Assembly: GCA_040902655.1 (NCBI GenBank)
Contig: JBBDWV010000052.1
Location: 81,503 to 145,502 of the forward strand
DNA from: Mycobacteriales bacterium
GTDB taxonomy: Bacteria; Actinomycetota; Actinomycetes; Mycobacteriales; SCTD01
DNA length: 64,000 bases
Direction of reading: 5' to 3'
The notes below the pieces were generated by a model that was given only the letters and a program-made list of their open reading frames with translations, had not been told where the DNA came from and did not search any database. Position numbers and translations under genes: made by a program. Each line of letters starts with the position of its first letter. Position 1 is the first letter of the stretch. Below, in pieces: positions 16,227 to 39,379 of the stretch.

Positions 16227-17974
16227 TGCGGCGCCGTCCGCACGTGCACGACGGCGACCTCGCCCGCGAGGGCCTTGGCCACGCCCTCACCGAGGGCGCC
16301 GGGCAGGTCGTCGGGCTCGCAGACCGGCCCCGTCGCCCAGCAGCCGTACGACCGGGCCAGCGCTGCCAGGTCGACAGCCGGGCCGGTCATGCGCATCCCG
16401 ATCCAGCTGTTGTCCGCCGCGCGGCCCCGGTGGCGTGCCACCTCCGCCTGGTGCGGCTCGTCGTTGTAGAAGCTGCTGTTGTCGTTCACCACCACCAGAG
16501 CCGGGATCTTGTAGTGGACGGCGGTCCAGAGCGCCCCGGGGGCCATGAGCAGATCGCCGTCACCCAGGATCCCGACCCCCAGCTGACCGCGGTCGCGAGC
16601 AGCCAGCGCCCCTCCGACCAGGGCCCCTGGCCCGTAACCGACCCCGCCCCCGCCGGAGTGACCGAGGTAGCTGCCGGCGCCCGGGAACTGCCAGACGCCC
16701 TCGGGCCAGGTGCGGGTGTTGCGCAGGCAGAGCAGGTGCTCGACGTCTTTGACCGCCCGCCAGGTCTCGGCGACGAGGCGAGAGGGGGCGATCGGCGTGC
16801 CGTCCCAGCGCTGCTCGACCGCGGCCCACTGCCGCGCGCGCAGCGCGGATACCCGGCGGCAGACGGCGTCACGGCGCCGGTCCGCCGCGGCGGGGTCGAG
16901 TCGCCTGCGGACCGCGGCGGTCAGCTGTGCCAGACCGAGGACAGGGTCGGCCAGCAGCTGCACGGTGCGGGGGACGGGCACGGCGAACGCATTGCTCCAG
17001 GACCGCAGGCCCAGGTCGCCGTGAGAGAGGTCGACCACCGCAGCGTCGGGCAGCGGCGCGGTGTCCCCGCGGCCACGACCCTTGCTCCGCAGCAGCCCAG
17101 GCAGGTCCACGACGTCGACCGCGAGGACCACGTCCGCCTCATGCAGCAGGTCGACGTCGCCGGTGGCGTTCTGGCGGTGGGCGGTCGGGAAGGCGACGTT
17201 GTTGCGGTCGTCGCGATAGGCCGCGCCGAGCAGCTCGACGAGCGCGACGAGCGGGGCCGTCGCCCGGGTGTCCAGGCCGATCCGCCCGGCGATGACGACC
17301 GGGCACTCAGCCGCGACGAGCAGCTCTGCGGCGCGGTCGACCTCCGACTGGAGCGCCGCAACCGGCGGTGCGGGAGCGTGCAGGGCCAGGTCCGGCAGCG
17401 GGACCGGACCGGCCAGCTCTTCCTCCTGCACGCCGGCGTCGAGCGAGACGTAGGCGGGTCCTCGCGGCGCGGACAGGGCCCGCTGCCGGGCCCGCGTGAC
17501 GTCCGCCACCGAGGCCGCAGCGGTCGCGGGTTCGGCGTCCCACACGACGAAGTCGCGGACCAGCTGGGCCTGGGTCGTGGCCGAGTGGATCCAGTCGATG
17601 GGCCGACGCTGCGCGGGGTCCATCGGGCCGCTGCCGCCCAGGACCAGCAGCGGCGTGCGGTCGCAGAAGGCGTCGTAGACGGCCATCGAGGCGTGCATCA
17701 ACCCGACGAGGTCGTGTACTGCCGCAACGCCCAACCCGCCGGTCGCCTTGGCGTACCCGTGTGCCAGGGAGACCGCGATCTCCTCGTGCAGGCACAGCAG
17801 CAGCTGCGGGCTGCGGTTGCCGCCGTGGTTGACCAGCGAGTCGTGCAGGCCGCGGAAGCTCGAGCCCGGGTTGAGCGGGACGTAGGCGATCTCCATGGAC
17901 CGCAGCAGGTCGACCACGGCGTCACTGCCGTAGGTGGCGGACGGTCCGCCCGGTACGGGCAGCTCGACGCTCAC
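16223..17974 (-). CDS. ThDP-dependent acetolactate synthase-like enzyme (copy 3)
   Basis: A 583-residue ThDP enzyme closely related to the one at 57: both have LNPGSSFRGLHDSLVN, LCLHEEIAVS and PIDWIHSATTQAQLVRD. The diphosphate motif is LGDGDLLMAPGALW followed by VVNDN. The GTG start at 17974 overlaps the stop of the AAA+ ATPase gene by GTGA, and its own stop overlaps the hydrolase gene, so AAA+, ThDP enzyme and hydrolase are likely translated as a coupled unit. The reading frame stays open upstream into the ATPase gene, but that is a shadow in another frame and not a fusion. Probable function: decarboxylation or carboligation of a 2-oxo acid. Confidence 0.9.
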   Translation of the reverse strand: MSVELPVPGGPSATYGSDAVVDLLRSMEIAYVPLNPGSSFRGLHDSLVNHGGNRSPQLLLCLHEEIAVSLAHGYAKATGGLGVAAVHDLVGLMHASMAVYDAFCDRTPLLVLGGSGPMDPAQRRPIDWIHSATTQAQLVRDFVVWDAEPATAAASVADVTRARQRALSAPRGPAYVSLDAGVQEEELAGPVPLPDLALHAPAPPVAALQSEVDRAAELLVAAECPVVIAGRIGLDTRATAPLVALVELLGAAYRDDRNNVAFPTAHRQNATGDVDLLHEADVVLAVDVVDLPGLLRSKGRGRGDTAPLPDAAVVDLSHGDLGLRSWSNAFAVPVPRTVQLLADPVLGLAQLTAAVRRRLDPAAADRRRDAVCRRVSALRARQWAAVEQRWDGTPIAPSRLVAETWRAVKDVEHLLCLRNTRTWPEGVWQFPGAGSYLGHSGGGGVGYGPGALVGGALAARDRGQLGVGILGDGDLLMAPGALWTAVHYKIPALVVVNDNSSFYNDEPHQAEVARHRGRAADNSWIGMRMTGPAVDLAALARSYGCWATGPVCEPDDLPGALGEGVAKALAGEVAVVHVRTAPQ

Positions 17975-18813
17975 GACCCGGACCCGACCGCCGCGTGCAG
18001 GTCCTCGGCCAAGAGCAGACTCGGGTCGAGCGCCACCTCGCGTCGCTGCGCCAGGGCCGCGAGCACCAGCTTGCGGACCCGGCGCCCGTCCCAGCCCGTG
18101 CAGCGTTCGGCCAGCGCGGCGTGCAGCGCGTCGTCCTCGGCCAGCGGCTTGATGTCCGGCCAGATCCCGGCCAGCTCGCGCAGCGACGCGGCGACGATGG
18201 CCGCGACGGTTGCGGCGTCCGGGAGCGGGACGTGCAGGACGAGGTCGGCGCGCGAGAGGAACGCCTCGTCGATGGCCTGCGGGAAGTTCGTCGTCGTCAC
18301 GAACAGCACCCCCGGGTGGGACTGCGCGACCGCGTCGATGCCGGCCAGGAGCGCGTCGGTGGCGCGATGGACGTCGACGGGGTTGGTTTCGAAGGAGGCG
18401 ACCGAGCGGCGCACGGCCAGCGACTCGACCTCGTCGATGAGGACGACGGTGTGTGGCCGGCGGGCAGCGAGCTCGGGGACCGTGTCGTACAGCAGCCTGG
18501 TGATGGCCCGCTGGCTCTCGCCGAGCATCTCGCTCGGGAACGCGTGCGGGTCCACCTCTACATAGGTGGTCGCACCCTGGGGTGCCAACGCGCGCGCCGC
18601 CGCCTGGGCCAACCCGCGGGCCAGCGTCGTCTTGCCGGTCCCCGGAGGACCGGCAAGCACGATCAACCCGTGGGGAAGGCCCGGCAGCGTGGCCAGGCGG
18701 TGGCCGTGCCGCATGGTGAGCAGCGCGGTCGACAGCAGCCGCTCCTTGGTGCCGGGTGGCACCAGGATGTGGTCCCACGGGCCGTCGTGGTGATCCGAGG
18801 GCAGGGCGTGCAT
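17971..18813 (-). CDS. TRIP13/Pch2-like AAA+ ATPase
   Basis: A single-domain AAA+ ATPase of about 280 residues. It has Walker A GPPGTGKTTLA (about residues 55-65), Walker B VVLIDEVESL (about 123-132), sensor 1 LFVTTTNF, an arginine-finger-type block AFLSRADLVLHVPLP and sensor 2 GWDGRRVRKL. The combination IDEVESL, TTTNF and GR-VRKL is typical of the TRIP13/Pch2 group, which remodels partner proteins by pulling on their N-termini. No HORMA-domain gene or nucleotidyltransferase is nearby, so a CBASS role is not supported. The neighbours are a bicupin upstream and a ThDP enzyme downstream, which suggests a remodelling or reactivating role for one of them. The start is uncertain: ATG 18813, or GTGs slightly upstream. 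Confidence 0.8.
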   Translation of the reverse strand: MHALPSDHHDGPWDHILVPPGTKERLLSTALLTMRHGHRLATLPGLPHGLIVLAGPPGTGKTTLARGLAQAAARALAPQGATTYVEVDPHAFPSEMLGESQRAITRLLYDTVPELAARRPHTVVLIDEVESLAVRRSVASFETNPVDVHRATDALLAGIDAVAQSHPGVLFVTTTNFPQAIDEAFLSRADLVLHVPLPDAATVAAIVAASLRELAGIWPDIKPLAEDDALHAALAERCTGWDGRRVRKLVLAALAQRREVALDPSLLLAEDLHAAVGSGS

Positions 18814-18853
18814 GGAGAGCACGCCCTGCGGCAGGGCGCTGGACCGCACCGGC

Positions 18854-19921
18854 TCAGGGCCAGGTGGGGCGCTCGACGGCCGGCCAGTCGACCGTCGACG
18901 GGTCACCAGCCTGGGCATCGCGGATCTCGTCCGACGGCTCTTCGAACAGCACCATCGGATCCATCAGCACCCGCATGGTCTCGAGCAGGCTGTCGAACAT
19001 GTGGATCCGGACCACCTTGGCGGTCTTGTCCGGGTCGTCGTTGAAGTGCTGGTGCCACAGGAAGTGGTCGACGACGATGATGTCGCCCTTCTCCCACGGG
19101 TGGTTCTCGCCCTTGTCCGGCTCGGTGCCGAGAAAGCTGTGCCCGCGTCCCTCGACGACGTAGAGCCAGGCCTCACCCGGGTGCCGGTGCATCGACTGGC
19201 CCCGGCCGGGACCGATCTCGAACATCGCCATGGTGATGCCGGACGCCTGGTAGCCGATGGCCTTGTCCAGCAGGAACGTCGTGCGCGTGCCGCGCGGGGT
19301 CGGCAGCAGCTCGAGGGAGTCCCAGCTGGTGTGCAGCCGGCCGGAGCGGCGGGCGTCCTGGTCTCGGGCCAGTCGACGCACGCGACGGGCGTAGGGGTCG
19401 TCGCCGTCGATGGCCGGCGCGTACGGCGGGCGCGGCGCGAGCTCTGCCGCCGGGGTCTGCCCGGCGTCCTCGAGGAAGGCCATGCCCATCGTCTCCAGCA
19501 GCGGCTCGCTGGAGAAGCTCAGGAAGCGGCCCGTCTCGCTGCCCTCGTTGCCGTGCCGGTGCCAGGCCCAGGCCGGCAGGTGCAGGGAGTCGCCGGGCCC
19601 CCACTCGATGCGCTCTCCGTCGATCTCGGTCCAGCCCCAGCCGGCGACGACGAACAGCATCGCGTCCCAGGAGTGGCGGTGGACGGTGGAGGTGGCGCCG
19701 GGGTTGATCTCGTGCACGAGGGCGTCCATCGAGCGGGTGGGCCGGTCGCCGTCGGCGCCGACGTAGACGCCGCGGCGCATACCCCGCGCCGTGTCCTGCA
19801 TCTCGACATCGGCCAGGCGCACCACCGTGTTGCGGTACTGCCGCCACTGCTCGAGGAAGTCGGCGCGGCGCTTCTTCTGCACGTGGTAGTGCGTGACCGC
19901 AGTGGTCGTCTTGTTCGGCAT
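18854..19921 (-). CDS. Bicupin protein, gentisate-dioxygenase-like (bicupin 1)
   Basis: A 355-residue protein with two cupin barrels. The N-terminal barrel has TVHRHSWDAMLFVVAG and AWHRHGNEG; the C-terminal barrel has MHRHPGEAWLYVVEGRGHS and LWHQHFND. Both barrels therefore keep metal-type histidines. This layout is that of gentisate and 1-hydroxy-2-naphthoate 1,2-dioxygenases, which use Fe(II) to open aromatic rings, but sequence alone does not prove dioxygenase activity. It begins one base after the TctC-like gene stop and precedes the AAA+ ATPase by 40 bases. Distant paralogues are at 24311 and 39380. Confidence 0.83.
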   Translation of the reverse strand: MPNKTTTAVTHYHVQKKRRADFLEQWRQYRNTVVRLADVEMQDTARGMRRGVYVGADGDRPTRSMDALVHEINPGATSTVHRHSWDAMLFVVAGWGWTEIDGERIEWGPGDSLHLPAWAWHRHGNEGSETGRFLSFSSEPLLETMGMAFLEDAGQTPAAELAPRPPYAPAIDGDDPYARRVRRLARDQDARRSGRLHTSWDSLELLPTPRGTRTTFLLDKAIGYQASGITMAMFEIGPGRGQSMHRHPGEAWLYVVEGRGHSFLGTEPDKGENHPWEKGDIIVVDHFLWHQHFNDDPDKTAKVVRIHMFDSLLETMRVLMDPMVLFEEPSDEIRDAQAGDPSTVDWPAVERPTWP

Positions 19922-22781: not shown

Positions 22782-24281
22782 GTGCACAACGACCACGACC
22801 ACGACCACTGGCACAGGTCCGGCCCGGCCGGAGAGTCGGACCGCACCTTCCTGGACGTGGAGGGTCTCGAGCAGTACACGCTCACCTCGGTGGGCGTCGA
22901 CATCGGCTCATCGACCTCGCAGGTCATGGTCGCCGGCCTGACCATTCGGCGCCGCGGAAGTGACCTGTCGACCGAGTTCGAGGTCACCGAGCGCGAGATC
23001 CGCTACGTCAGTCCACCGCTGCTGACGCCGTACTCCTGCGGCACGAGGATGGATGTCTCCCTTCTGGAGCAATTCGTCCGGGAGTCGTACGCGCAAGCCG
23101 GTCTCGTGCCGGAGCGCGTGGACACGGGTGTGGTCGTCGTCACGGGTGAGGCGCTGAACAAGGAGAATGCAGCGGAGATCGCCGCTCTCGCCTCCAGTTG
23201 GTCGGGGGACTTCATCTGCGTCTCGGCCGGTGCGAACCACGAGGCGGTCCTTGCTGCACACGGCTCGGGGTCGGTGGCGCTCTCCGAGCGGGAGAACTGC
23301 ACGGTCCTGAACGTCGACATTGGTGGTGGGACGACGAAGGTCTGCCTCATCGACCGCGGGCGGATCGTCTACCGGGAGGCCTTCAGCGTCGGTGCCCGCC
23401 TCGTCGCCTGGGAGCCGGACGGCCGGATCGCCAGGCTGGAGGCCCCGGCTCACGTGTTCGCGGCCCAAACCGGAGACGCGCTCCAGCTCGGCGGCACCAT
23501 CGGCCCGGGTGAGATCGACCGGTTGGCCGAACTCATGGCGCAGGTGGTCCTCGACGCGATCGTCCCAGGCCCGGTTGCCGGGCTCCGCCGTGACCTCATG
23601 GTCACCCACGCTGCGGATGCGGCGGCGGCGGAACGACCGGCTTTCGACCGGATAGTTTTCTCGGGCGGCGTCTCGGAGTACGTCAACCGCGACGAGGTGG
23701 AGTCCTACGGGGACTTCGGACCCGCGCTCGGCGGGCACATCCGGCGTTGCCTGTATCAGGCCGGTCTCGCTGAGTTCGTCACGCGCGCCGAGCACGGCAT
23801 CCGGGCCACGGTCATCGGTGCGAGCCAGTTCTCGGTCCAGGCAAGTGGCCAGACCTGCTACATCTCCGCGGACCACCTGCTCCCGGTAAGGAGCCTGCCC
23901 GTCGCGCACGTCGAATTTTCTCCCGGAGCGGACCCGGAGGAGGCGATCCGGGTCGCGCTGCGCGGACGCGATCGGTCCGACCTGAGTGATCCACTCGCGC
24001 TGGCAGTGTCCTTCCAGGGCCGGCGGAACTACCCGGCGCTGCGCCGCTACGCGGAGGCGCTGGTACTCGTGGCGGCGGGTTCGGCCCTCTACCTGGTCCT
24101 CCGGGACGACCTGGCCCAGGCCCTTGGTCGCCTGATGGTCGCCGAGCTGGCCCATCCCGGACCGGTCGTCGTCGTCGACGGGATCACCGTCGGCGATCTG
24201 GACTACCTGGACATCGGCCGCCCCATGGGGGCGACCCGCTCGATCCCGGTCACGATCAAGTCCCTTGCCTTCCCCCGATGA
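22782..24281 (+). CDS. EutA-like ASKHA-fold protein with His-rich N-terminus (copy 1)
   Basis: A 499-residue member of the EutA family (ethanolamine ammonia-lyase reactivase) in the actin/Hsp70 ATPase superfamily. Phosphate 1 motif is VGVDIGSSTSQVMV (about residues 37-50), phosphate 2 is LNVDIGGGTTKVCLID (about 175-190) and the adenosine region is FSGGVSEY. EutA releases damaged cobalamin from its lyase using ATP, but no EutB/EutC or other B12 enzyme is in the window. The N-terminus carries a run of alternating His and Asp (HNDHDHDHWH), a likely metal-binding tail. GTG start with CCGGAGG upstream. The stop overlaps a bicupin frame; the same pairing occurs at 37698-40513. The target may thus be the bicupin. 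Confidence 0.82.
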   Translation: MHNDHDHDHWHRSGPAGESDRTFLDVEGLEQYTLTSVGVDIGSSTSQVMVAGLTIRRRGSDLSTEFEVTEREIRYVSPPLLTPYSCGTRMDVSLLEQFVRESYAQAGLVPERVDTGVVVVTGEALNKENAAEIAALASSWSGDFICVSAGANHEAVLAAHGSGSVALSERENCTVLNVDIGGGTTKVCLIDRGRIVYREAFSVGARLVAWEPDGRIARLEAPAHVFAAQTGDALQLGGTIGPGEIDRLAELMAQVVLDAIVPGPVAGLRRDLMVTHAADAAAAERPAFDRIVFSGGVSEYVNRDEVESYGDFGPALGGHIRRCLYQAGLAEFVTRAEHGIRATVIGASQFSVQASGQTCYISADHLLPVRSLPVAHVEFSPGADPEEAIRVALRGRDRSDLSDPLALAVSFQGRRNYPALRRYAEALVLVAAGSALYLVLRDDLAQALGRLMVAELAHPGPVVVVDGITVGDLDYLDIGRPMGATRSIPVTIKSLAFPR

Positions 24282-24310
24282 ACCCGAAGACCGCCCTGCC
24301 GAGGAGTGAC

Positions 24311-25429
24311 ATGCCAGAAGAAACTCAGCCCACCCCCCGCACAACGTTCGTCTACGACGAGTGGATGGAGAGCCAGGAGCTCCCAATCTACCGGGGGCAC
24401 TTCGTACCCGACATGCGGACCCTCCCTCTGGCGCGCTGGGAGGAGCGCGGTTGCGATGCGGCGTTCGTCCAGCTGACCGGCCAGGAGGGAGTGAGCGAGG
24501 CGCGCATCACCGAGATCGCGCCGGGTGAGACCCTGCCGCCGTTCAAACTCGCCATCGACGAGATGGTCTACGTGGTGAGCGGTTCCGGCTCCACCCGCGT
24601 GTGGGCCCACGGTAACCGGGCCGAGGACGGACACCAGTTCGAGTGGCACGACAAGGCGCTGTTCATGATCCCGCCGAACCACTACGCGGAGTACAGCAAT
24701 CTCCGCGGTGACCAACCCGTGCGCCTGCTGCACTACACCTATTTGCCACTGGCCATGTCGCTGGTGACGGATCCTGACTTCTTCTTCGACAATCCGTACA
24801 GCCGCAGCACGAGCAGCATCGGCTTACAGTCCGCGTTCTCTGAAGCCAAGATGATCAGCGGTGGAGAGGGCTTCCGGTGGATCATCAGCCGGCACAGGAA
24901 CGTAGCGTACTGGTACGGCAACTTCTTCCCGGACATGGGCGCATGGGAGAAGTTGGACGCAAACCCTTACCGAGGTGCGGGTGGCAGCACGGTTCGCATG
25001 CAGTTCGCGGGATCGGACATGAGCTGTCACATGTCGGTGTTCGACGCAATGACTTACAAGAAGGCGCATCGGCATGGACCCGGCCGCGTCATCGTCATCC
25101 CCTCGGGGGAGGGCTATTCGACCTTGTGGCTGGAGGGTCAGGAAGAGCCGGTGGTCGTGCCGTGGCAGGAAGCGGCACTGTTCGTGCCGCCGGACCGTTG
25201 GTTCCATCAGCATTTCAACCTGAGTGGTGAACCGGCCCGATATCTGGCGCTCCATCCGCCGATGCAATTTCACGGCTACGCAGAAAAGGCAGAAGACCGC
25301 GAGCGGGATCAGATCGAGTACCCGGACCAGGACCCCAGCGTCCGGCTGCGCTTCGAGGCGGAACTGGCGAAGCGTGGCCTCGAGAGCCGCATGCCGAAGG
25401 ACGCCTACGAGGGCCACGGCGACGCCTGA
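24311..25429 (+). CDS. Bicupin protein paired with EutA-like gene (bicupin 2)
   Basis: A 372-residue double-cupin protein. The C-terminal barrel is complete in its metal motifs: KKAHRHGPGRVIVIPSGEGYS and RWFHQHFNLSGEP. The N-terminal barrel has ETLPPFKLAIDEMVYVVSG and NHYAEYSN and has lost most ligands. It is closely related to the protein at 39380 and resembles ring-opening dioxygenases of the gentisate type. The ATG at 24311 follows GAGGAGTGAC closely. An ATG at 24278, overlapping the upstream stop (ATGA), would add 11 residues. Third codon positions look poorer in G/C than in neighbours left of 21 kb, a hint of different origin. Confidence 0.83.
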   Translation: MPEETQPTPRTTFVYDEWMESQELPIYRGHFVPDMRTLPLARWEERGCDAAFVQLTGQEGVSEARITEIAPGETLPPFKLAIDEMVYVVSGSGSTRVWAHGNRAEDGHQFEWHDKALFMIPPNHYAEYSNLRGDQPVRLLHYTYLPLAMSLVTDPDFFFDNPYSRSTSSIGLQSAFSEAKMISGGEGFRWIISRHRNVAYWYGNFFPDMGAWEKLDANPYRGAGGSTVRMQFAGSDMSCHMSVFDAMTYKKAHRHGPGRVIVIPSGEGYSTLWLEGQEEPVVVPWQEAALFVPPDRWFHQHFNLSGEPARYLALHPPMQFHGYAEKAEDRERDQIEYPDQDPSVRLRFEAELAKRGLESRMPKDAYEGHGDA

Positions 25430-27105: not shown

Positions 27106-28200
27106 ATGGGTTCCATCCGAAGGGTCGCGACGCCAGGCGTTGCCGTCGCTATGACCGTCATCCTGGCTGCGTGCGGGGGCGGCGGCACGAAGAGCACCGC
27201 TGAGGGCGATGCGCCTGCGAACGACTCTCCCTTCATGCACGCCGGTGACGACAGGACGGAGTACCTCAAGGAGTGTGCCGCTGGCGAGGGCGGCCTCACC
27301 TGGTACACGTCCCTGTCCGGCAAGGTGGTGGACAAGCTGGTTCAGGAATTCACTGCCGAATACCCGGACATCAAGGTCGAGGTGTTCCGCGGCGAGCAGA
27401 CCGACGTGGTCTCTCGTGTCGTGCAGGAGAGCCAGGCGGGCCGGCTGCAGGGCGACGTCGTGGAGGTGACTTCGGACGGGTTCCGCGTTCTGGCCGACCT
27501 CGGCGTGCTGGCTCCCTTCACGAGCCCGGCGCTCGACGACTACAGCGAGCGGTTCACCATCCCTGCTCCCGAGGGTGACGGCGCCCTCGGCGTGGCCGAC
27601 CGCGCCTCGTACGTGGGCTTTGCCTACAACACGGAGGCGTTGCCCGAGGAGGACGTCCCCAGCGACCTCGAGGACCTGCTCGACCCGGCGCTCAAGGGCA
27701 AGATGGCCATCACCTCCAGCACCACCGGCGTGCGTTTCGTGGGCAACGCGTACGAGCGCTTCGGCGAGAAGAAGGGAGAGGAGTTCCTGCGGCAGTTCGC
27801 TGAACAGAACATCCGTGTGGAAGCGATCTCCGGTAACGCGTTGTCGGGACTCATCGGCACCGGCGAGGTGGTGTCGTCGCCCGGCATCTTCCGCAACCAC
27901 GTCGAGCAGCTCAAGAAGGACGGGGTGCCGATCGAATGGGTGCCCCTCGAGCCGGTAACGGCGAACGTTGGCTACGCCGGCGCCTTCGCCGATGCTTCTA
28001 GCCCGTGCTCTGCCGCACTGTTCCTCGACTTCGAGCTCGGCGACCCGGGCACGGAGATCTACGAGAACCTGTACTACCCGCGACCGAGCGAGGACCTCGG
28101 CTTCGAGTCGTGGGTCCCCGACGAGACCTTCGAGTCCACGGACGCCTACACCGAGGCATACGAGACCTGGAGCTCGACCTTCGACAAGTTGTTCACGTAG
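27106..28200 (+). CDS. ABC transporter family-1 solute-binding lipoprotein (cassette B)
   Basis: A 364-residue binding lipoprotein with signal ending in lipobox LAAC near residue 23 and a glycine-rich linker. The mature protein begins GGLTWYTSLSGKVVDKLVQEF and has VEVFRGEQTDVVSRVVQESQAG, the pattern of ferric-iron type family-1 proteins. GAGGAGG lies eight bases before the ATG. It is paralogous to but clearly diverged from the pair at 7126 and 8328. It starts cassette B, whose permease follows within 50 bases while the ATPase lies four genes downstream (34353). Confidence 0.88.
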   Translation: MGSIRRVATPGVAVAMTVILAACGGGGTKSTAEGDAPANDSPFMHAGDDRTEYLKECAAGEGGLTWYTSLSGKVVDKLVQEFTAEYPDIKVEVFRGEQTDVVSRVVQESQAGRLQGDVVEVTSDGFRVLADLGVLAPFTSPALDDYSERFTIPAPEGDGALGVADRASYVGFAYNTEALPEEDVPSDLEDLLDPALKGKMAITSSTTGVRFVGNAYERFGEKKGEEFLRQFAEQNIRVEAISGNALSGLIGTGEVVSSPGIFRNHVEQLKKDGVPIEWVPLEPVTANVGYAGAFADASSPCSAALFLDFELGDPGTEIYENLYYPRPSEDLGFESWVPDETFESTDAYTEAYETWSSTFDKLFT

Positions 28201-28250
28201 ACCCTGACCGGCGATCACCGAATAGGCGACGAGACTTGACGGGACCTGAC

Positions 28251-30053
28251 GTGACAGCCGGACCGGACACGGGAAGGGGGGGCGCAGCGACCGCCGCGCG
28301 CGAGGTCGCGCTGCGCCCCCCCGGTCAGCCTCTGGAGGAACTGCCGATCTCGGAGGAGGAGGGGAACGCGCGCCGAGGCGCCAGATGGGTCCGAGAGCGC
28401 TGGTGGTTCCTCACCCTGCTCTTCGTGTCGGGCGTGCTGATCGTCCCGCCGCTGGCCCTCATGGTGTGGACGAGTCTGACGCCGGGCGGCGGCCTGGGGA
28501 TCAGCAGCGAGATGAGCCTCGACGGCTACCGCGACGTCCTCACGTCCGAGGGCTTCCGGGACATTCTGGCCGACACGGCGGTCTTCACCCTCGGCGCCAG
28601 CATCGGCTCCATTTTCCTGGGCTGCGCCATGGCCTGGTTCGTGGCGCGGACGGACATGGTCGGCAAGACGCTGATCTATCTCTGCGTCTTCCTGTCCTTC
28701 GCCATCCCCGGGATGATCGAAGCGATCGGCTGGATCCTGCTCTTCGGCGAGGGCGCCGGCATCATCAACGGCTTCCTCGACCGCGGGCTCGGGTTCACCC
28801 TCACGATTCAGTCGATGTCCGGCATGATCTTCGTCCAGACGCTGTCTTGGGCGCCGATGGTGTTTCTGCTGTTGGTCGGCCCGTTCAAGGCCATCGACGC
28901 CAGCATCGAGGACAGTGCGCGCGTCTCCGGGGCACGCAAGTCCTACGTCTATCGCCGTATCACCGCGCCGCTCCTGGCGCCGAGCATTCTGGCCGTCCTC
29001 ATCCTTGTCATCATCCGGGCCGTGCAGGCGTTCGAGGTTCCGCTCTTTCTCGGGACTCCCGCAGGCGTGAAGACGTTCACCACAGAGATCTACGGAAAGC
29101 TGCGACGCAGCTACATCCCCGACTACGCGGAGGCGGCGGCCTACGGCACCATCCTGGTGCTGCTTCTTCTGGCGACGCTGATGTACTACCACCACGTCAC
29201 CAGGACGGCTTCTCGCTACACGACTGTGACTGGCAAGGCCTTCAAGGCCAGCACCATTCCCCTCGGTCGCGGCAGGTGGGTCATGGGCGGCATCGCGGCA
29301 ATCCTGTTCCTCCTGTATGTCGCCCCAGCCCTTGCCATGGCAGTGACCTCCGTCTGGCCGAACGTCGGGGCGGCCAGCGGCCTCGGCGACTTCACCTTCC
29401 GCAACTATGAGGAGCTCGCCGGCCATCGCTCCCTCTGGCCGGGCATCCGGAACAGTCTGGTCATCGGGGTGGTCACGGCGACCATTGCCACCCTGCTGTG
29501 CCTCGCGGCGGCTTTCCTCGTCGTGCGATCGGCCATCCCTGGACGACAGTCGCTCGACCACATCCTGTCCATCCCGATCGTCATACCGGGCACCGTCCTC
29601 GGCCTCGCATTCCTCATCACCTACCTGCGTGTGCCCATCGCCGTCTACGGGACGATCTGGATCTTTGTTTTGGCCTACATCGCCCACTACGCGCCCTACG
29701 CAATGCGTTACCTCCAGCCCTCGCTGCTTCAGATCAGCAAGGACATCGACGATGCGGGGCGCATCTCGGGCGGTAAGGGTCATGTCGTGCTCCGACGGAT
29801 CCTGCTGCCACTCGTGGTGCCCGCTGTGATCGGTTCCTGGCTGTACGTGTTCTTCCACGCCTTCCGCGACATCTCCATCGCCGCCATGATTTATACGGCT
29901 CAGACCCCCGTGGTGGCGACGCAACTGCTCGACATGTGGCAGGACGGGGTGGCCGGCGTACTCAGTGCCTATGGCTCGCTGCTCTCGATTGTGAGCATCC
30001 TCATCGGCGGCGGCGCGTTCTACTTCGCCAAGCGCATGGGCTTCAAGGAGTGA
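28251..30053 (+). CDS. ABC transporter fused two-module permease (cassette B)
   Basis: A 600-residue permease with two fused BPD_transp_1 modules and a polar N-terminal extension of about 50 residues before WWFLTLLFVSGVLIVPPLAL. EAA loops are IEDSARVSGARKSYVYRRI (about residues 220-238) and IDDAGRISGGKGHVVLRRI (about 500-518). It is paralogous to the permease at 9558 and partners the lipoprotein at 27106 and the ATPase at 34353. I chose the GTG at 28251; a TTG at 28236 is also possible. Ribosome sites are weak for both, so the exact start is uncertain. Confidence 0.87.
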   Translation: MTAGPDTGRGGAATAAREVALRPPGQPLEELPISEEEGNARRGARWVRERWWFLTLLFVSGVLIVPPLALMVWTSLTPGGGLGISSEMSLDGYRDVLTSEGFRDILADTAVFTLGASIGSIFLGCAMAWFVARTDMVGKTLIYLCVFLSFAIPGMIEAIGWILLFGEGAGIINGFLDRGLGFTLTIQSMSGMIFVQTLSWAPMVFLLLVGPFKAIDASIEDSARVSGARKSYVYRRITAPLLAPSILAVLILVIIRAVQAFEVPLFLGTPAGVKTFTTEIYGKLRRSYIPDYAEAAAYGTILVLLLLATLMYYHHVTRTASRYTTVTGKAFKASTIPLGRGRWVMGGIAAILFLLYVAPALAMAVTSVWPNVGAASGLGDFTFRNYEELAGHRSLWPGIRNSLVIGVVTATIATLLCLAAAFLVVRSAIPGRQSLDHILSIPIVIPGTVLGLAFLITYLRVPIAVYGTIWIFVLAYIAHYAPYAMRYLQPSLLQISKDIDDAGRISGGKGHVVLRRILLPLVVPAVIGSWLYVFFHAFRDISIAAMIYTAQTPVVATQLLDMWQDGVAGVLSAYGSLLSIVSILIGGGAFYFAKRMGFKE

Positions 30054-30114
30054 CGGCGTCCTGTAGCACAAAGCCGAACTTCCTGAGGCACCCGAGAGAC
30101 AGGACGTAGATTCA

Positions 30115-31230
30115 ATGCCACTACTCCTCGAGCACACACCCAGAATCCGTCTTGCGCGTCGGCGTGTCGTCGCGGTCACCCTGAGGAAGAAGGACCCGAA
30201 GTGGCGGTTCGCGCTGGGCGCGCGGCCACTCTCCGAAGGCGTCGTTGTCGATCTGGAGTCCGAGGACGGGGTGCACGGGTACGGCTGGGTCGGAGAGATC
30301 CAGCACCTGGGCCATGACCTGGAGTCGGTCCGAGCAGCCACCTACTCACTCGTCGAATCCGTGAGTGAGCTGAGCACGGAAACGCTGCTCCCCCTGTTCG
30401 CGAGGCTGGAGGAGGCGGCCGCCGGGCGACGGCCGGCCCTCTCCGGTGTGGAGTCGGCTGTCCTGGACCTGATCGCGCGCACGCAAGGAGTGCCGGTTCA
30501 CGCACTTTTCGGCGGCACCTTCCGCAGTGAGATCCCTGTGCTGCGAATCTTGGGCATCAAAGAGCCGGACGAGATGGCCGTCAACGCGCAGAAGCTCCGG
30601 GCCGAGGGCTATCGACACATCAAGGTCAAGATCGACAACGATCCTTCCGGTGTCGACGCCGAGCGGATCCGCGCGATCCGCAGCGCGGTGGGCCCGGACG
30701 TCCGTCTGACCCTCGATGCCAATCAGTCCTACGACGCCCGGGGAGCCTGCGCGCTCTACGAGCAGATCAGCGACCAACGCATCGATGTCTTCGAACAACC
30801 AGTTCCCGCCAAGGATTGGGAAGGCCTGCGTCAGGTCTCGGACGCCCTCGACTGCATTGTGGAGGCGGACGAATCCGCTGACAGCATGCCTGCTCTTCTT
30901 CGTCTCGCGGGCACCGGTGCTTGTACCGGCATCAGCTTGAAGCTGCTGAAGCTGGGTGGCTTACGGGCGGTGCTGCATGCCGCCCGTGTCTGCCGGGACG
31001 CGGGGATCCATACACGACTGGGGGCCCACGTCGGGAGCCAACTGCTCGCAGCGGCAGCGCTCCAAGCGGCGGTGGCGGTCGAGGACATCAGCTTCGCGTG
31101 CGAGCTCGCCGAGTTCGCACGGCTGGACGACGATCCGTTCGAAGGTCTCACAGTCGAGGGCGGCGTCATCCGGCTTGGATCCGCGACAGGCCTTGGCGTT
31201 CGTTTGTTGGACGGCGCGCTGACGACATGA
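30115..31230 (+). CDS. Enolase-superfamily enzyme (mandelate racemase / muconate lactonizing type)
   Basis: A 371-residue enolase-superfamily protein with the MLE/dipeptide-epimerase type barrel. It has a lysine pair in HIKVKID (about residues 163-169) and metal ligands in LTLDANQSY, VFEQPVP and VEADES, and a second lysine pair in ISLKLLKLGG. AHVGSQ follows. Enzymes of this type abstract a proton next to a carboxylate and racemise, epimerise or cycloisomerise it. The gene lies between a permease and an acyl-CoA ligase, so it probably acts on the imported acid. The upstream ribosome site is weak. The specific reaction cannot be chosen between muconate-like cycloisomerisation and epimerisation. 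Confidence 0.87.
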   Translation: MPLLLEHTPRIRLARRRVVAVTLRKKDPKWRFALGARPLSEGVVVDLESEDGVHGYGWVGEIQHLGHDLESVRAATYSLVESVSELSTETLLPLFARLEEAAAGRRPALSGVESAVLDLIARTQGVPVHALFGGTFRSEIPVLRILGIKEPDEMAVNAQKLRAEGYRHIKVKIDNDPSGVDAERIRAIRSAVGPDVRLTLDANQSYDARGACALYEQISDQRIDVFEQPVPAKDWEGLRQVSDALDCIVEADESADSMPALLRLAGTGACTGISLKLLKLGGLRAVLHAARVCRDAGIHTRLGAHVGSQLLAAAALQAAVAVEDISFACELAEFARLDDDPFEGLTVEGGVIRLGSATGLGVRLLDGALTT

Positions 31231-31282
31231 CCGTGACGGTTGACCCGGTACACCCATCGACCAGCCCTGGAGGCGTTGCTTC

Positions 31283-33397
31283 GTGACTTCCGTGCTCGAC
31301 TCGTTCTTGCAACCGGCCGGTATCGCCATCGTCGGAGCGACCGATGAGCGCTACTACGCCCGCAGCCTGATCCGGAATTTGCTCGCGGCCGGCTTCCCTG
31401 CGGAGAACGTCTACCCGGTGCACCCGAGGCACGAGACGGTCGGAGGCCTGACCTGCTACGCAGATCTCGCGTCGATCCCCAACGCGGTGGACCTCGTTGT
31501 CGTGATCACTCGTGCGGATACCGTGGCGGAGATCATTAGGGAGGCCGGAAAAATCGGCGCGAGCGCCGCTCTCGTGCTCGCGGATGGCTTCGCCGAACAG
31601 GGGGAGGCCGGAAGGAAGCTGCAGGAGGAACTCGCCGTCACCGCTGGCGAAACGGGAGTCGCAGTTCTTGGACCCAATACCCTCGGTTTTCTCGCGCCAC
31701 CGGAGGGGGTCGGCGCTTGGGCCGCGGGCGAGCTGTCACAGCCGTTGATCCCCGGCAGCGTGGGCGTCGTCTTCCAGTCCAGCGGGATCCTCAACCTGTT
31801 CCTCACCCTCTCGGTCCAGCGCCGGCTCGGAATCCGGGCCGCCTTCTCGACGGGCAACGAGGTCTCCGTCGATGTGGCTGACCTGGTTGAATACTTTGCG
31901 CGCGACGACAAGACCCGCGTCATCGCCATGGTGCTCGAGACGACCACCCGTCCCCGCCGGCTGATCGCGGCGCTGAAGTTGGCGCGATCGATGGGCAAGC
32001 CGGTCGTCATGCTCAAGCTCGGCGCGTCGGAGCGGGCACGGCGCAACGCCGTTGCTCACACCGGGCGGATGGCCAGCTCGGCCTCGGCCTGGGAAGCGAT
32101 GCTGCGTCGGCTCGACGTCGTCCTCGTTCATGATCATGATGAGTTGGTCGAGGCAGCAGCGCTGTTCGACGCCGCCCCCTCGCCCGACCGATCCGGGGGG
32201 CAGCGGCCGGCCGGGGCCGCCCTGGTCACGATCTCCGGCGGCGACTGCAGCCTCCTCGCCGACCTCGCGGAGCGGGAGGGCCTCCCGTTGGCCGACCTCA
32301 CCCCCGAGACGGTGACTCAGCTCGCCGACGTGCTGGAGAAGCCGGGCCTGCTGGGTAACCCGCTGGACTGTGAGAATCTGCACCAGACGGACTACGAGGC
32401 CTTCCTCGAGGCAGTCGGCATCCTGTGCGGTGACCCGGGAGTGGACATCGTCGGGTTCCGACTCAACCTCCCCAGCGACCCCACGGACCGACTGCGGAAG
32501 TTGTACCGGGACGCCACGACCGTAGCCCGCGAGTGCGGCGTGGAACCGGTCGTGCTGAGCCGAGCGAGCGAGCCACTGGCCGCAGAGTGGTTCACGGTCT
32601 TCTCCGAGCTCGGCGTGCCCTTCCTGCCGGCCTTTCGCCCTGCCGTGACCGTTATGAGCAGGTGGTGCGCCCGGTCGGAGCCGGCAATCGGACCCGACGT
32701 GGCGCTCGAGTCGGTGCCCGAACACGTGTCCGCGCCTAGCCAGGGCACCGTCGCCTCCTGGCAGCAGACCCAGGAGTTTCTGGGGCGAGCCGGCATCCCA
32801 TATGCGCCGTGCGCTCTGGTCAGCACCCAGCTAGAGGCCGTGACAGCCGCGGCCACGCTGCCTTACCCCCTCGTCGCCAAGCTCATCTCACCCGACGCGC
32901 CGCACAAGAGTGACCTCGGTGGCGTCATCACAGGACTGGGTGACGAAGCTGCGGTGGCCGAGGCCTTCACACGGCTGCAGGGCATCGCCGCGGAGAACAG
33001 GCTGCCCTTGGAGGGCGTGGAACTTCAGGCGATGATCTCCGGCGGCTTCGAGATGATCCTCGGGCTCAAGGTGGACCCGGTCGTCGGTCCTCTGCTGCTG
33101 GTCGGCGTCGGTGGCGTGCTGGCCGAGGTCACCCACGACGTCGTGCTCGATGTTCCCACCCTGGATCAGCAGTCTGCCGAGCAGCTGATCCGGCGACTCA
33201 CCAGCGCTCCCTTGTTCGCGGGGTACCGCGGGCGGGACCGGCTGGACATCTCCGCGTTCGCGTCGATCGTCGTCAAGCTGGCGGAGTTCAGTATGCAGGA
33301 GTCCGGTCAGATCCTGGAGTTGGACTTGAATCCCGTGCTGGTCATGCCCCAGGGGCAAGGCGCGGTAGCCGTAGACGCTCTGGCGGTTGTTCCGTGA
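31283..33397 (+). CDS. NDP-forming acyl-CoA synthetase (acetate-CoA ligase family)
   Basis: A 704-residue fused alpha-beta acyl-CoA synthetase. It starts with a CoA-binding Rossmann domain (PAGIAIVGATDERYYARSLIRN). Succinyl-CoA-ligase-like domains follow, with GPNTLGFLAP and the phospho-histidine-type loop VAHTGRMAS. It ends with an ATP-grasp domain (YPLVAKLISPDAPHKSDLGGV and EMILGLKVDPVVGPLLLVGVGG). It would activate a carboxylic acid to its CoA ester using ATP with ADP release. GTG start with TGGAGGCG upstream. Downstream of the enolase-type enzyme and upstream of a beta-hydroxyacid dehydrogenase, it fits a CoA-dependent breakdown of the imported acid. The substrate is unknown. Confidence 0.9.
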   Translation: MTSVLDSFLQPAGIAIVGATDERYYARSLIRNLLAAGFPAENVYPVHPRHETVGGLTCYADLASIPNAVDLVVVITRADTVAEIIREAGKIGASAALVLADGFAEQGEAGRKLQEELAVTAGETGVAVLGPNTLGFLAPPEGVGAWAAGELSQPLIPGSVGVVFQSSGILNLFLTLSVQRRLGIRAAFSTGNEVSVDVADLVEYFARDDKTRVIAMVLETTTRPRRLIAALKLARSMGKPVVMLKLGASERARRNAVAHTGRMASSASAWEAMLRRLDVVLVHDHDELVEAAALFDAAPSPDRSGGQRPAGAALVTISGGDCSLLADLAEREGLPLADLTPETVTQLADVLEKPGLLGNPLDCENLHQTDYEAFLEAVGILCGDPGVDIVGFRLNLPSDPTDRLRKLYRDATTVARECGVEPVVLSRASEPLAAEWFTVFSELGVPFLPAFRPAVTVMSRWCARSEPAIGPDVALESVPEHVSAPSQGTVASWQQTQEFLGRAGIPYAPCALVSTQLEAVTAAATLPYPLVAKLISPDAPHKSDLGGVITGLGDEAAVAEAFTRLQGIAAENRLPLEGVELQAMISGGFEMILGLKVDPVVGPLLLVGVGGVLAEVTHDVVLDVPTLDQQSAEQLIRRLTSAPLFAGYRGRDRLDISAFASIVVKLAEFSMQESGQILELDLNPVLVMPQGQGAVAVDALAVVP

Positions 33398-33449
33398 CCC
33401 GCGCGCAGGCGCACAGTCCCCATCCCCGACAGGAAAAGAGAAGCGACCC

Positions 33450-34301
33450 ATGACCAACCTCCCGAGCCCGGCCGCTGACCATGTTGTCGGTGTTCTCGGT
33501 CTTGGCGCCATGGGCGCTCCCATGGCGCGGCACCTCCTCGCGGCCGGTCACCTCCTGTACGTCCACGACCTGAATCCGGCCGCGGTCAACGCTGCCGTCG
33601 AACTCGGAGCCAAGGCTGCCGGCAGCCCGCGGGCGCTGGGGGAGAACTGCGACGTCGTTCTTGTCATCGTCCCGACCGATGAGGACCTGCTCGACGTCTG
33701 CACGGGCGTCGACGGCATTCTCTCGAACGCCCGCGACGGACTCGTCCTGTTGATGTGCAGCTCTGTACGTCCCGAAACTTGTCAAGCCGTTGCTGCGGCG
33801 GCTCCGGCGGGCGCCGAGGTCCTCGACGCGGCGCTGACCGGAGGGGTCCGGGGGGCCGAGGAGGGCGTGATCAACCTGCTTGTCGGCGGCAACGAGCAGG
33901 CACTGGACAGGGTTCGACCCGCGCTCGCTCCCTGGACGCGCGACGTCCACCATCTCGGGCCCCTCGGGGCGGGCCAGGTGGGCAAGACGGCGAACAACCT
34001 CATCCACTGGGCACAGATCTCGGTGATCGTGGAGGCTTTCGAGCTGGCACGTCGTCTGGGGGTCTCGGTCCCGAAGTTGCGTGCGGCCCTCGAGACGGGC
34101 CCCACCGACAGCCGCACGCTGCGTGAACTGGAAGACATGCGCTTCACGTGGCACGCGAAGGATCTTGCGAATGCGTCCGCGATGGCCGAACCAGTGAGCA
34201 TGCCGCTCCCTGTGGCCGAGATCTCACGTCAAGCAATGCTGGAGATCACCGTGCCGCGGGTCACCCGTCTTCTCCGGGGCGAGGATCCGCGGGATGAGTG
34301 A
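33450..34301 (+). CDS. 3-hydroxyisobutyrate dehydrogenase family NAD(P)-dependent reductase
   Basis: A 283-residue beta-hydroxyacid dehydrogenase. The dinucleotide motif is GVLGLGAMGAPMARHLL near the N-terminus. The substrate-binding block is LDAALTGGVRGAEEGVINLLVGG, and the catalytic lysine lies in GQVGKTANNLIHW. Family members oxidise 3-hydroxyisobutyrate, tartronate semialdehyde, or related 3-hydroxy acids. AGGAAAAGAG precedes the ATG at 33450. Its place between an acyl-CoA ligase and an ABC ATPase suggests an oxidation step in the same pathway. Confidence 0.9.
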   Translation: MTNLPSPAADHVVGVLGLGAMGAPMARHLLAAGHLLYVHDLNPAAVNAAVELGAKAAGSPRALGENCDVVLVIVPTDEDLLDVCTGVDGILSNARDGLVLLMCSSVRPETCQAVAAAAPAGAEVLDAALTGGVRGAEEGVINLLVGGNEQALDRVRPALAPWTRDVHHLGPLGAGQVGKTANNLIHWAQISVIVEAFELARRLGVSVPKLRAALETGPTDSRTLRELEDMRFTWHAKDLANASAMAEPVSMPLPVAEISRQAMLEITVPRVTRLLRGEDPRDE

Positions 34302-34352
34302 CGTCCGAACTCCAGCCCCACAACCCGAGCCGAGCAAGTTCCAGGAGCACTG

Positions 34353-35498
34353 ATGCTACGAGTTGAGCAGCTCGTGAAGACATTCGCCGGCGACCACAGC
34401 GGAGGCAAAGACGATGAGCAGGAAACAGGGTCGCGCCGCGTCTTCGCTGTGAACGGGGTCAGTTTCACCGTCGCAGAAGGTGAGCTGTTCACGCTCCTGG
34501 GTCCCTCCGGATGCGGGAAGTCCACCACCCTCAGGTCGATTGCCGGCCTCGAGGACCCCGACTCCGGATCGATAGCCCTGCAGGAGCGAATGCTCTTTTC
34601 TCGTCAGGGCCGTTCAAAGCCGGTGAATGTGGCCGTCCATGAGCGGGGCTTGGGGATGGTGTTTCAATCCTATGCAATCTGGCCGCACATGACCGTGTTC
34701 GACAACGTCGCCTTCCCCCTGCAGGTGCGCCGACGCAAGGACAAGTTGACACGGAAGGTCATCGAATCGCGCGTGATGCGCGTTCTCGAGACCATGGAGT
34801 TGACGAAGTACGCGCAGCGCCCTGCGACCAAGTTGTCCGGCGGCCAGCAACAGCGCCTCGCTCTGGCCCGGGCCATCGTGATCGAGCCGCCCCTACTGCT
34901 CCTCGACGAGCCCCTCTCGAACCTCGACGCCAAGCTGCGTGAGTCGCTGCGCGACGAGCTGAAGCGGTTGCAGCGCGAACTCGGTATCACGTCGATCTAT
35001 GTCACGCACGACCAGGTTGAGGCCTTGGCGCTGTCGAGTCGGATCGCTGTCATGCAGGAAGGGAACATCGTCCAGCTCGGTCGGCCGCGCGAGATCTACA
35101 ACAGCCCGAGCTGCAAGTTCGTCGCCGAGTTCATCGGGACAACCAACTTCCTCCCGGGCGTCGTATGTCTCCGCGAGGGCTCCCGGTACGTCGTGAGGAC
35201 TTCGGCGGGCGAGCTGACCCTCGACTCTCCCATCGACGTGCCCGTAGGAAGCGATGTGGTTGTCTCCGCGCGTCCCGAGGTCATCGACCTGCACACGGAG
35301 GGGAGCGCCCTGTCCGTGGCCAACGAGTGGAAAGGCACTGTCCTGAGCCGCTCGTTCCTCGGAGACTCGGTCGATCACCTCGTGGGCGTGGGTGAGTACA
35401 CCCTCCGGGCAAGGGTGAATCCGTCGGTCTCGATCCAGCCGCAAAGCCAGGTGTTCATCCGTATGAGCGCCGACCGCTTGACCATGATGGCCGCTTAG
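34353..35498 (+). CDS. ABC transporter ATP-binding protein (cassette B)
   Basis: A 381-residue ATPase nearly collinear with that at 11379. It has Walker A GPSGCGKSTTL, signature LSGGQQQRLALARAI, Walker B LLLLDEPLSNLD and switch VTHDQ. C-terminal TOBE-type sequence includes VVSARPEVIDLHTEG. The variable insert after strand 1 is acidic (HSGGKDDEQETGSRR) instead of basic. It presumably energises the permease at 28251 although four genes lie between. The likely stop signal for the unit is a small hairpin at 35509. Confidence 0.93.
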   Translation: MLRVEQLVKTFAGDHSGGKDDEQETGSRRVFAVNGVSFTVAEGELFTLLGPSGCGKSTTLRSIAGLEDPDSGSIALQERMLFSRQGRSKPVNVAVHERGLGMVFQSYAIWPHMTVFDNVAFPLQVRRRKDKLTRKVIESRVMRVLETMELTKYAQRPATKLSGGQQQRLALARAIVIEPPLLLLDEPLSNLDAKLRESLRDELKRLQRELGITSIYVTHDQVEALALSSRIAVMQEGNIVQLGRPREIYNSPSCKFVAEFIGTTNFLPGVVCLREGSRYVVRTSAGELTLDSPIDVPVGSDVVVSARPEVIDLHTEGSALSVANEWKGTVLSRSFLGDSVDHLVGVGEYTLRARVNPSVSIQPQSQVFIRMSADRLTMMAA

Positions 35499-35683: not shown

Positions 35684-36877
35684 ATGACCGACAGACAACG
35701 GATCGCCGTCGTCGGACTGGGAACAGTCCACGACGCGCCGCCCGGGACGAGTCAGCGCATGATGGCCGCAGAGGCGGCTCGCCTGGCTATCGCGGACGCC
35801 GGATTGTCCATTAGCGACATCGACGGGGCCCTCGACCTCCGGAGGTCTGGCGGTGGAGGTGATCGGTCCACCTACTCCGACGTCTTCACCCGGGTTCTCG
35901 GCCTCCCGGCACAGTTCTACTTCACGGTGGGACGCGGAGGTGCGGTGGCCGGGCTAGCGACCGCTGTGGCCACCGGCTTCCTCGACCGGGGCCTGGCCAA
36001 CTATGTGGTCTGCGTCGGTGCTGTGGACGACTACACCAAGGCGCAGCTGACCAAGAAGCAAGGCCAGCGCGGAATGGCCCACGTCGAGAAGGAAGGCTAC
36101 TGGGGGAAGGCGCTCGGCGACCTCCGCGCCGTGAGCCACCACAGCTGGATGGCGTCGCGGCACATGGCCGAGTACGGAACGACAAGCGAGCAGCTGGGTG
36201 CTATTGCGGTCGCCCAGCGTGCATGGGCATGCATGAACCCCGAAGCGCGCATGTACGGACGGCCCATCACGATCGCGGACCACCAGGCATCCCCACTGGT
36301 CGCTGAGCCCTACCACCTTCTGGACATCAGCCAGATTTCGGACGGCGCCGTCGCCTTTGTTCTCACCACGGAGGATCGTGCCCGCGACTGCGCACAGAAG
36401 CCGGTCTACGTGCAGGGCCAAGGCTTCGGCGAGGTCGCTGCGGACTTGTGGTGGGAGAAGAAGAACTACACGACCATGGCGGTCGCGCCCGCGAAGCAGA
36501 AAGCCTTCGCGCAGGCCGGTCTCAGCGGGGTCGAGGACCTCGACGTCGTTCAGCTGTACGACTGCTTCACCGCTGAGGTGCTCTTCCAGCTGGAGGACTA
36601 CGGCTTCTGCGAGAAGGGGGAGGGGGGCAAGTGGGTCGAGGCCGGCCATACCGCCCCGGGCGGTACCGTCCCGCTGAACACCGGGGGCGGTCTGCTCTCG
36701 AACAAGCACCTCGGGGATCTCACCGGGTTCTCCGAGGCGGTGTTGCAGCTACGGGGGCAGGCCGGTGAGCGGCAGGTGCCCGACTGCGAGGTCGCCCTGA
36801 CAACCGGCCACGGGGGCGAGCTCGTCTCGCCGGGCCTGTGTTCCATCCACACGAGCACGATCCTGGGAGTGGCGTGA
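35684..36877 (+). CDS. Thiolase-fold acyl-CoA protein, Ltp2/SCP2-like, without the usual catalytic Cys
   Basis: A 397-residue thiolase-superfamily protein of the lipid-transfer/SCP2-thiolase-like group. The place of the nucleophilic Cys reads FTVGRGGAVAGLATAVATG, without Cys. The block LYDCFTAEVLFQLEDYGFC followed by KGEGG and NTGGGLLSNKHL is typical of Ltp2-type proteins. In steroid side-chain degradation such a protein pairs with a DUF35 protein and acts as a retro-aldolase on acyl-CoA thioesters. The next gene here is indeed a DUF35 protein overlapping the stop. A retro-aldol role is thus more likely than thiolysis. AAAGGAG precedes the ATG. Confidence 0.85.
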   Translation: MTDRQRIAVVGLGTVHDAPPGTSQRMMAAEAARLAIADAGLSISDIDGALDLRRSGGGGDRSTYSDVFTRVLGLPAQFYFTVGRGGAVAGLATAVATGFLDRGLANYVVCVGAVDDYTKAQLTKKQGQRGMAHVEKEGYWGKALGDLRAVSHHSWMASRHMAEYGTTSEQLGAIAVAQRAWACMNPEARMYGRPITIADHQASPLVAEPYHLLDISQISDGAVAFVLTTEDRARDCAQKPVYVQGQGFGEVAADLWWEKKNYTTMAVAPAKQKAFAQAGLSGVEDLDVVQLYDCFTAEVLFQLEDYGFCEKGEGGKWVEAGHTAPGGTVPLNTGGGLLSNKHLGDLTGFSEAVLQLRGQAGERQVPDCEVALTTGHGGELVSPGLCSIHTSTILGVA

Positions 36878-36879
36878 CC

Positions 36880-39296: not shown

Positions 39297-39379
39297 GGGT
39301 GCCTCTCATCGTCCTGGTGCGACGTGCTCGTGAGGCCCGCTCAGGGGGCCAGGGCGGGCCGCACGCCGTTCGTGGCGGC

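Follow-up and report, generated by a model that had tools for sequence, protein, structure and literature searches.

A EutA-like ATPase paired with a bicupin in a Mycobacteriales bacterium: a possible metal-centre maturation factor without a cobalamin partner

A stretch of 64,000 nucleotides (nt) from a Mycobacteriales bacterium (contig JBBDWV010000052.1 of assembly GCA_040902655.1, positions 81,503 to 145,502), referred to here as the window, contains two gene pairs that each encode a EutA-like ATPase of the ASKHA fold and a protein built of two cupin domains (bicupin). A third such pair lies elsewhere in the genome, which is 98% complete and was searched with family profiles for EutA-like, EutB and B12-related families; no further family member was found in it. 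The two pairs of the window comprise the following features.

22782..24281, plus strand: EutA-like ASKHA ATPase, copy 1, 499 amino acids (aa); Pfam EutA 321 bits over the full length; GTG start
22782..22889, plus strand: His/Asp-rich N-terminal tail of copy 1, 36 aa with 5 His; its sequence begins VHNDHDHDHWHR
24278..25429, plus strand: bicupin partner of copy 1, 383 aa; open reading frame (ORF) whose start overlaps the EutA-like stop by ATGA
37698..39296, minus strand: EutA-like ASKHA ATPase, copy 2, 532 aa; Pfam EutA 356 bits; GTG start with GAGAGG upstream
39147..39296, minus strand: His/Asp-rich N-terminal tail of copy 2, 50 aa with 8 His; PDHDHERDDE...ENPVWQQDNVTLHS
39380..40513, minus strand: bicupin partner of copy 2, 377 aa counted from MAKDAI; ligand candidates H243, H245, H250 and H288

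An earlier note on this DNA had placed a EutA-like-first pair at 22782-25429 and a bicupin-first pair at 37698-40513, and had described a His/Asp-rich tail on both EutA-like proteins; pairs and tails are both present as it had them. A GGAGG ribosome-binding site directly precedes the GTG start of copy 1, so its tail is very probably translated. The partners overlap by 4 nt (ATGA) in two of the three pairs, namely pair 1 and the third pair (G000:C5; L004:9482-12222), and in pair 2 the EutA-like gene follows the bicupin gene on the minus strand after 83 nt. The bicupin start MAKDAI in pair 2 is conserved among relatives, and its ORF can be extended to 40594. The surroundings of the third pair include genes for a phenol-hydroxylase-type monooxygenase, an isochorismatase-like protein, a TRAP-type binding protein and a hydantoinase-A-type protein.

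The pairing of the EutA-like protein with the bicupin is far beyond chance. Among 86 EutA-like copies at 80 loci of other genomes, 44 have a bicupin gene within 300 nt, in either order and, in 43 of the 44, on the same strand; the statement of the earlier note that the pair always shares one strand thus holds for all three pairs of the source genome and nearly always elsewhere. Many of the remaining copies lie on short contigs or have a bicupin gene a few kilobases (kb) away, and in one Hyphomicrobiales group the bicupin is encoded elsewhere in the genome, in one case that was read out near another EutA-like paralogue. The distance between partner genes ranges from an overlap to several kb or another contig. 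Across 246 genomes of the same class, the set of four with a full-length bicupin is identical to the set with the EutA-like clade, an overlap with a chance of about 7e-9 by simple combinatorics that ignores the kinship of the genomes; the two genomes with EutB and a true EutA (G042 and G212) encode no full-length bicupin. The distance matrices of the adjacent partners (47 pairs) correlate at 0.95, a value reached in none of 2000 permutations. Clustering of the two families yields essentially identical subclades, and in genomes with several pairs (L056, L066 and the source genome) subclade is matched with subclade. In Phyllobacterium and Sinorhizobium the pairs are carried by megaplasmids (rhizobial records L125 and L126), each of which matches at two places; this suggests that the system may move between genomes.

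EutA is the reactivating factor of the adenosylcobalamin-dependent ethanolamine ammonia-lyase (Mori et al. 2004, as cited in PMC5821096). Both EutA-like copies of the window are homologous to it over the full length (Pfam cut-off 27 bits; profile positions 2-474 of 475) and share its ASKHA ATPase motifs; both miss the NCBIfam EutA equivalog cut-off of 598 bits by more than 300 bits (best scores 270 and 288). In the alignment the nucleotide motifs DIGSS, DIGGGTT and SGGV are conserved within the clade, and D54, D193-GGGT and SGGV are invariant or nearly so across the clade and true EutA. The AlphaFold2 model of copy 2 (predicted local distance difference test, pLDDT, 87) has an ASKHA fold (Z 18.5), with residues 1-31 of the tail disordered at a pLDDT below 50. 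Foldseek and VIA matches to this model are mostly exopolyphosphatases, PilM and FtsA, and a diol dehydratase reactivase is not listed, which carries no weight; activators of 2-hydroxyacyl-CoA dehydratases and a component of aromatic acyl-CoA reductase are also found among the ASKHA fold matches.

A maximum-likelihood tree of 75 sequences, in which no outgroup fixes the root, splits seven reference EutA proteins from all other sequences with a support of 100/100. Six of the seven (G042, G212, Haladaptatus, Halalkalicoccus, Cetobacterium and Escherichia coli) adjoin EutB or sit in eut operons, and the seventh, from Acetoanaerobium, comes from a record without annotation. Copy 1 is very divergent (end branch 3.44), and its position inside the clade is therefore unsure. 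Apart from this separation, the clade differs from EutA in that it has no EutBC partner, is paired with a bicupin, carries a His/Asp-rich N-terminal tail and, in proteobacteria, a poly-His C-terminus, and in most members reads AGHH or AGHK in one loop where EutA has AGP. RefSeq labels the EutA-like protein of Phyllobacterium zundukense 'EutA' and its bicupin 'hypothetical protein'. The 'EutA' of papers on ectoine is an unrelated ectoine-utilization gene name and was set aside.

The absence of EutB from the window, reported earlier, extends to the whole source genome by profile search. Three proteins with B12-binding domains are encoded there, all outside the window; judged by the length of their open frames, they are probably mutase-type proteins and MetH. 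In a census of 27 distinct genomes carrying the clade, the bicupin was present in 27, EutB in five and diol dehydratase in five, each of the latter two being undetected in the other 22. A cobalamin lyase that accompanies the clade, which the earlier note had named as what would refute its idea, was thus not found. EutB stands beside true EutA in G042, G212, L127, L129 and L130. The conserved neighbour clusters examined included no B12 enzyme, and neither a cobalamin riboswitch nor any other Rfam family was matched in the window, nor was any Rfam family matched in four relatives.

The bicupins of the window match Pfam Cupin_2 weakly, and their predicted fold is clearly that of a bicupin. The AlphaFold2 model is confident (pLDDT 88; predicted template modelling score 0.88), and among solved structures those of salicylate and gentisate 1,2-dioxygenases come closest (2phd and 3bu7; Z 21, 12-16% identity), with Z 21.1 and a root-mean-square deviation of 3.2 over 253 aligned residues for 2phd. 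In an alignment of 32 sequences, the C-terminal cupin conserves H243 (32/32), H245 (31/32), H288 (32/32), H290 (31/32) and H250 (26/32), which form a candidate metal site of the pattern HxH(x4)H...HxH. The N-terminal cupin has no HxH, and Q86/Q88 are typical there. The partner of copy 1 retains the HxH and HQHFN motifs, with Val in place of the fourth His. Gentisate and salicylate dioxygenases resemble the bicupin in fold and in aromatic catabolic context; their metal site is located in the N-terminal cupin, whereas the candidate His ligands of the bicupin lie in the C-terminal cupin and its N-terminal cupin lacks the three-His site. Against the NCBIfam model gentisate_1_2 (cut-off 442 bits), the bicupin of pair 2 scored 18 bits and that of pair 1 gave no match. 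By motif spacing, the position of H250 is presumably that of the Glu ligand of QueD, with numbering after residue E76 in the QueD report named next. QueD of Streptomyces is a nickel cupin dioxygenase, and its four-His variant E76H keeps the fold and residual activity (PMC4416304); the natural four-His pattern of the bicupin would need such tolerance. The likeness to QueD is at the level of the fold, and a dedicated ATPase partner is not mentioned in the available part of that report (PMC4416304).

The His-rich tails are a conserved property of the clade. Of 91 clade members, 84 have an N-terminal tail with at least three His, as against none of seven true EutA proteins. A C-terminal tail with at least six His is present in 43 clade members, of which none is actinobacterial; in the proteobacterial members it is a long poly-His segment. 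Such poly-His tails are characteristic of nickel chaperones. The tails contain 245 HxH motifs, compared with a mean of 77 after shuffling, and a motif of the approximate form DHDHxHD...(E/D)NP(I/L)Wx(x)DNV is recognizable from Streptomyces to alpha- and betaproteobacteria; tails homologous to that of copy 2 were found in Streptomyces, Blastococcus, Mycolicibacterium and proteobacteria. Three betaproteobacterial loci (L033:4486-8022, L046:9902-13486 and L053:7904-11407) contain single ORFs of 1168-1195 aa, in which the EutA-like protein is fused through a His-rich linker to an ABC permease.

Genes for nickel transport and regulation recur beside the pairs of proteobacterial relatives. Of the 80 loci, 15 encode NicO within 10 kb of the EutA-like gene; in L053 it lies 6 nt upstream, in Comamonadaceae it follows 32-84 nt downstream, and in others it is found upstream next to IclR. 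NikR is present in seven loci, and in those of Comamonadaceae it is the next gene after NicO (NikR_C 97 bits). In Phyllobacterium trifolii (L143) the cupin gene is followed by the genes for the EutA-like protein, NicO (363 bits) and NikR (96 bits), and the gap between the last two contains a NikR box that agrees with the consensus at 11 of 12 positions, a match equalled in 2 of 20000 shuffles. The scan gave a good site only there in L143 and none upstream of the cupin and EutA genes examined. In a further Hyphomicrobiales locus (L145) a HupE/UreJ nickel permease gene (192 bits) adjoins the EutA-like gene. Because several independent layouts of nickel genes are seen, hitch-hiking is unlikely.

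Some further features were noted at these loci. In L145 a perfect inverted repeat, GTAAGC-N16-GCTTAC (3460-3487), lies upstream of HupE/UreJ and is a possible operator for a metal regulator. A NikR-box-like site (11/12) occurs in a Xanthobacteraceae locus (L042:2223-2250) about 7.7 kb from the EutA-like gene. In seven Comamonadaceae loci (L062, L064, L065, L067, L068, L070 and L071) a gene for a CobW-family GTPase adjoins those for NikR and a zinc-type alcohol dehydrogenase. In Phyllobacterium zundukense the place of the nickel genes is taken by a TerC-family gene.

Around the pairs, the window contains the following further features.

40591..41346, minus strand: IclR-type regulator upstream of pair 2; NCBIfam PcaR/PcaU/PobR subfamily 155 bits, below the cut-off of 285
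27106..35498, plus strand: catabolic and transport genes between the pairs (Pfam), encoding a solute-binding protein, permease, enolase-type isomerase, acyl-CoA synthetase, hydroxyacid dehydrogenase and ABC ATPase
35684..37338, plus strand: pair of thiolase-like and OB-fold (ChsH2_C) proteins adjoining pair 2
17971..19921, minus strand: second cupin and AAA ATPase pair (cupin 18854-19921, then AAA ATPase 17971-18918)

The conserved neighbourhood includes a Rieske oxygenase with a LigXa_C domain, a ferredoxin and a reductase, together with a ketopantoate-hydroxymethyltransferase-like aldolase, an alpha/beta hydrolase, RraA, IclR, and TctC and ABC transporters; a phenol-hydroxylase-type flavin adenine dinucleotide (FAD) monooxygenase is encoded at the third copy. 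Together these genes suggest aromatic catabolism. The cupin at 18854-19921 is of a second kind, a bicupin whose two domains each contain an HxH site, and is adjacent to the AAA ATPase, which has the conserved motif HALP[AS]DHHDGPWD, in about 14 related loci (most loci holding that cupin), which suggests that cupins in this neighbourhood are repeatedly accompanied by their own ATPase. Two thiamine-diphosphate (TPP) enzymes flank the region (2567-4318 and 16226-18025, minus strand), and a TPP enzyme is also encoded beside the L125 pair of Phyllobacterium zundukense. Riboflavin/lumichrome catabolism, which likewise involves TPP and Rieske enzymes, was considered and dropped, as neither EutA nor a matching gene set appears in the available part of PMC12746152.

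The pairing and co-evolution of the two families, the lack of B12 lyases, the intact nucleotide motifs, the conserved tails and cupin ligands and the nickel genes of relatives are computational observations; the His-rich tails and nickel transport genes in particular suggest that the bicupin is loaded or refreshed with metal, probably nickel. We propose, with a probability of about 0.58, that the EutA-like protein is an ATP-dependent metallochaperone or metal-centre reactivase that is dedicated to the adjacent bicupin metalloenzyme, has no cobalamin partner and handles a metal that is most likely nickel. The ATPase core with its ASKHA fold, a legacy of the EutA family, would attach to bicupin that is in the apo form or inactivated, and the disordered His/Asp-rich tails would act as arms that capture a divalent metal, most likely nickel, and keep it bound. 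ATP binding and hydrolysis may then place or exchange the metal in the HxH...H...H site of the C-terminal cupin, and the metal-loaded bicupin would serve as an oxygenase or ring-cleaving enzyme within the aromatic catabolic cluster. The proposal of the earlier note that the tail binds or delivers a metal such as iron is retained as far as metal delivery, itself presumed, is concerned; iron is less likely than nickel, given the NicO, NikR and HupE/UreJ neighbours in proteobacterial relatives and the poly-His segments. The undescribed role that it had suspected for the EutA family is borne out by a separate clade tied to a bicupin without a cobalamin lyase.

Several points weigh against metal delivery by the EutA-like protein. 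Many cupins take up metal without any chaperone, and NicO-type transporters may carry nickel or cobalt and may import or export. No nickel gene lies beside the pairs of the window, nor was any found beside other actinobacterial pairs, and in the source genome the NicO match is weak (41 bits) and far from the pairs and HupE was not found; for the pairs of the window nickel is thus suggested by homology with relatives. A tail-less subclade (paralogues in L054, L059, L063, L066 and L143) still pairs with a cupin, which indicates that pairing does not depend on the tail, and the tail-less paralogue of L143 adjoins NicO and NikR, so that the nickel link is separable from the tail. Moreover, the His-rich tails may only buffer metal.

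That last role for the tails belongs to an explanation that we regard as unlikely, in which the EutA-like protein reactivates the bicupin without delivering metal and ATP-driven conformational exchange frees an inactivated cofactor or a bound inhibitor, in the way that EutA acts on ethanolamine ammonia-lyase. Its ancestry in a reactivase family, the intact ATPase motifs and the persistent pairing of the tail-less subclade agree with such a function, whereas the strong retention of the tails, their expansion in proteobacteria and the neighbouring nickel transport and regulatory genes do not. It is more doubtful still that the two proteins are subunits of one ATP-dependent catabolic enzyme, with the EutA-like protein comparable to the ASKHA subunits of enzymes of the hydantoinase/acetone carboxylase type or of benzoyl-CoA-type reductases. 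Strict co-occurrence and co-evolution favour this view, as do the location in catabolic clusters that also encode a Rieske oxygenase, an FAD hydroxylase, aldolases and transporters and the fold matches to dehydratase activators and the acyl-CoA reductase component; however, the poly-His tails and nickel genes would be left unexplained and the distance between the genes is variable.

Only one of the three alternatives is clearly disfavoured, namely that the protein is an ordinary EutA-type reactivase for another adenosylcobalamin enzyme such as a mutase or diol dehydratase. The full-length Pfam match and the three B12-binding-domain proteins of the source genome speak for such a role; it is nevertheless very improbable, judged by the genomic context, in which EutB and diol dehydratase are mostly undetected and neither a neighbouring B12 enzyme nor a riboswitch was seen, and by the wide margin to the equivalog cut-off.

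The proposed metallochaperone resembles HypB, UreE/UreG and CooJ/CooC in having, by sequence, a His-rich terminal segment and an NTPase domain, and in being encoded beside its client metalloenzyme, here the bicupin, and, in proteobacterial relatives only, beside nickel genes. It differs from HypB, UreG and CooC in that an ASKHA domain replaces their P-loop (SIMIBI) NTPase and that its client would be a cupin. A full-text literature search, the coverage of which excluded subscription journals and preprints, found no description of a EutA-type protein linked to a cupin, nickel or a metallochaperone. A bolder version, which we put forward tentatively and at somewhat less than even odds, is that the clade represents the first ASKHA-fold nickel insertase, a descendant of B12 reactivases that collects metal with its His-rich tails and both loads and re-activates a bicupin oxygenase of aromatic catabolism that depends on nickel. 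Such an insertase would constitute a class of metallochaperones unrelated in fold to HypB, UreG and CooC and dedicated to a cupin.

The database label 'ethanolamine ammonia-lyase reactivating factor EutA' is given in organisms that mostly lack that enzyme, and a large family is thereby misannotated. If the proposed function is correct, the EutA fold was recruited from the repair of B12 enzymes to the assembly of metal centres, and the cupin superfamily possesses an ATP-driven maturation factor of its own. Environmental bacteria and actinomycetes would then rely on a nickel-dependent enzyme in a catabolic cluster for which no tie to nickel had been recognized, and the general question of whether reactivases and metallochaperones form one mechanistic class would become testable.

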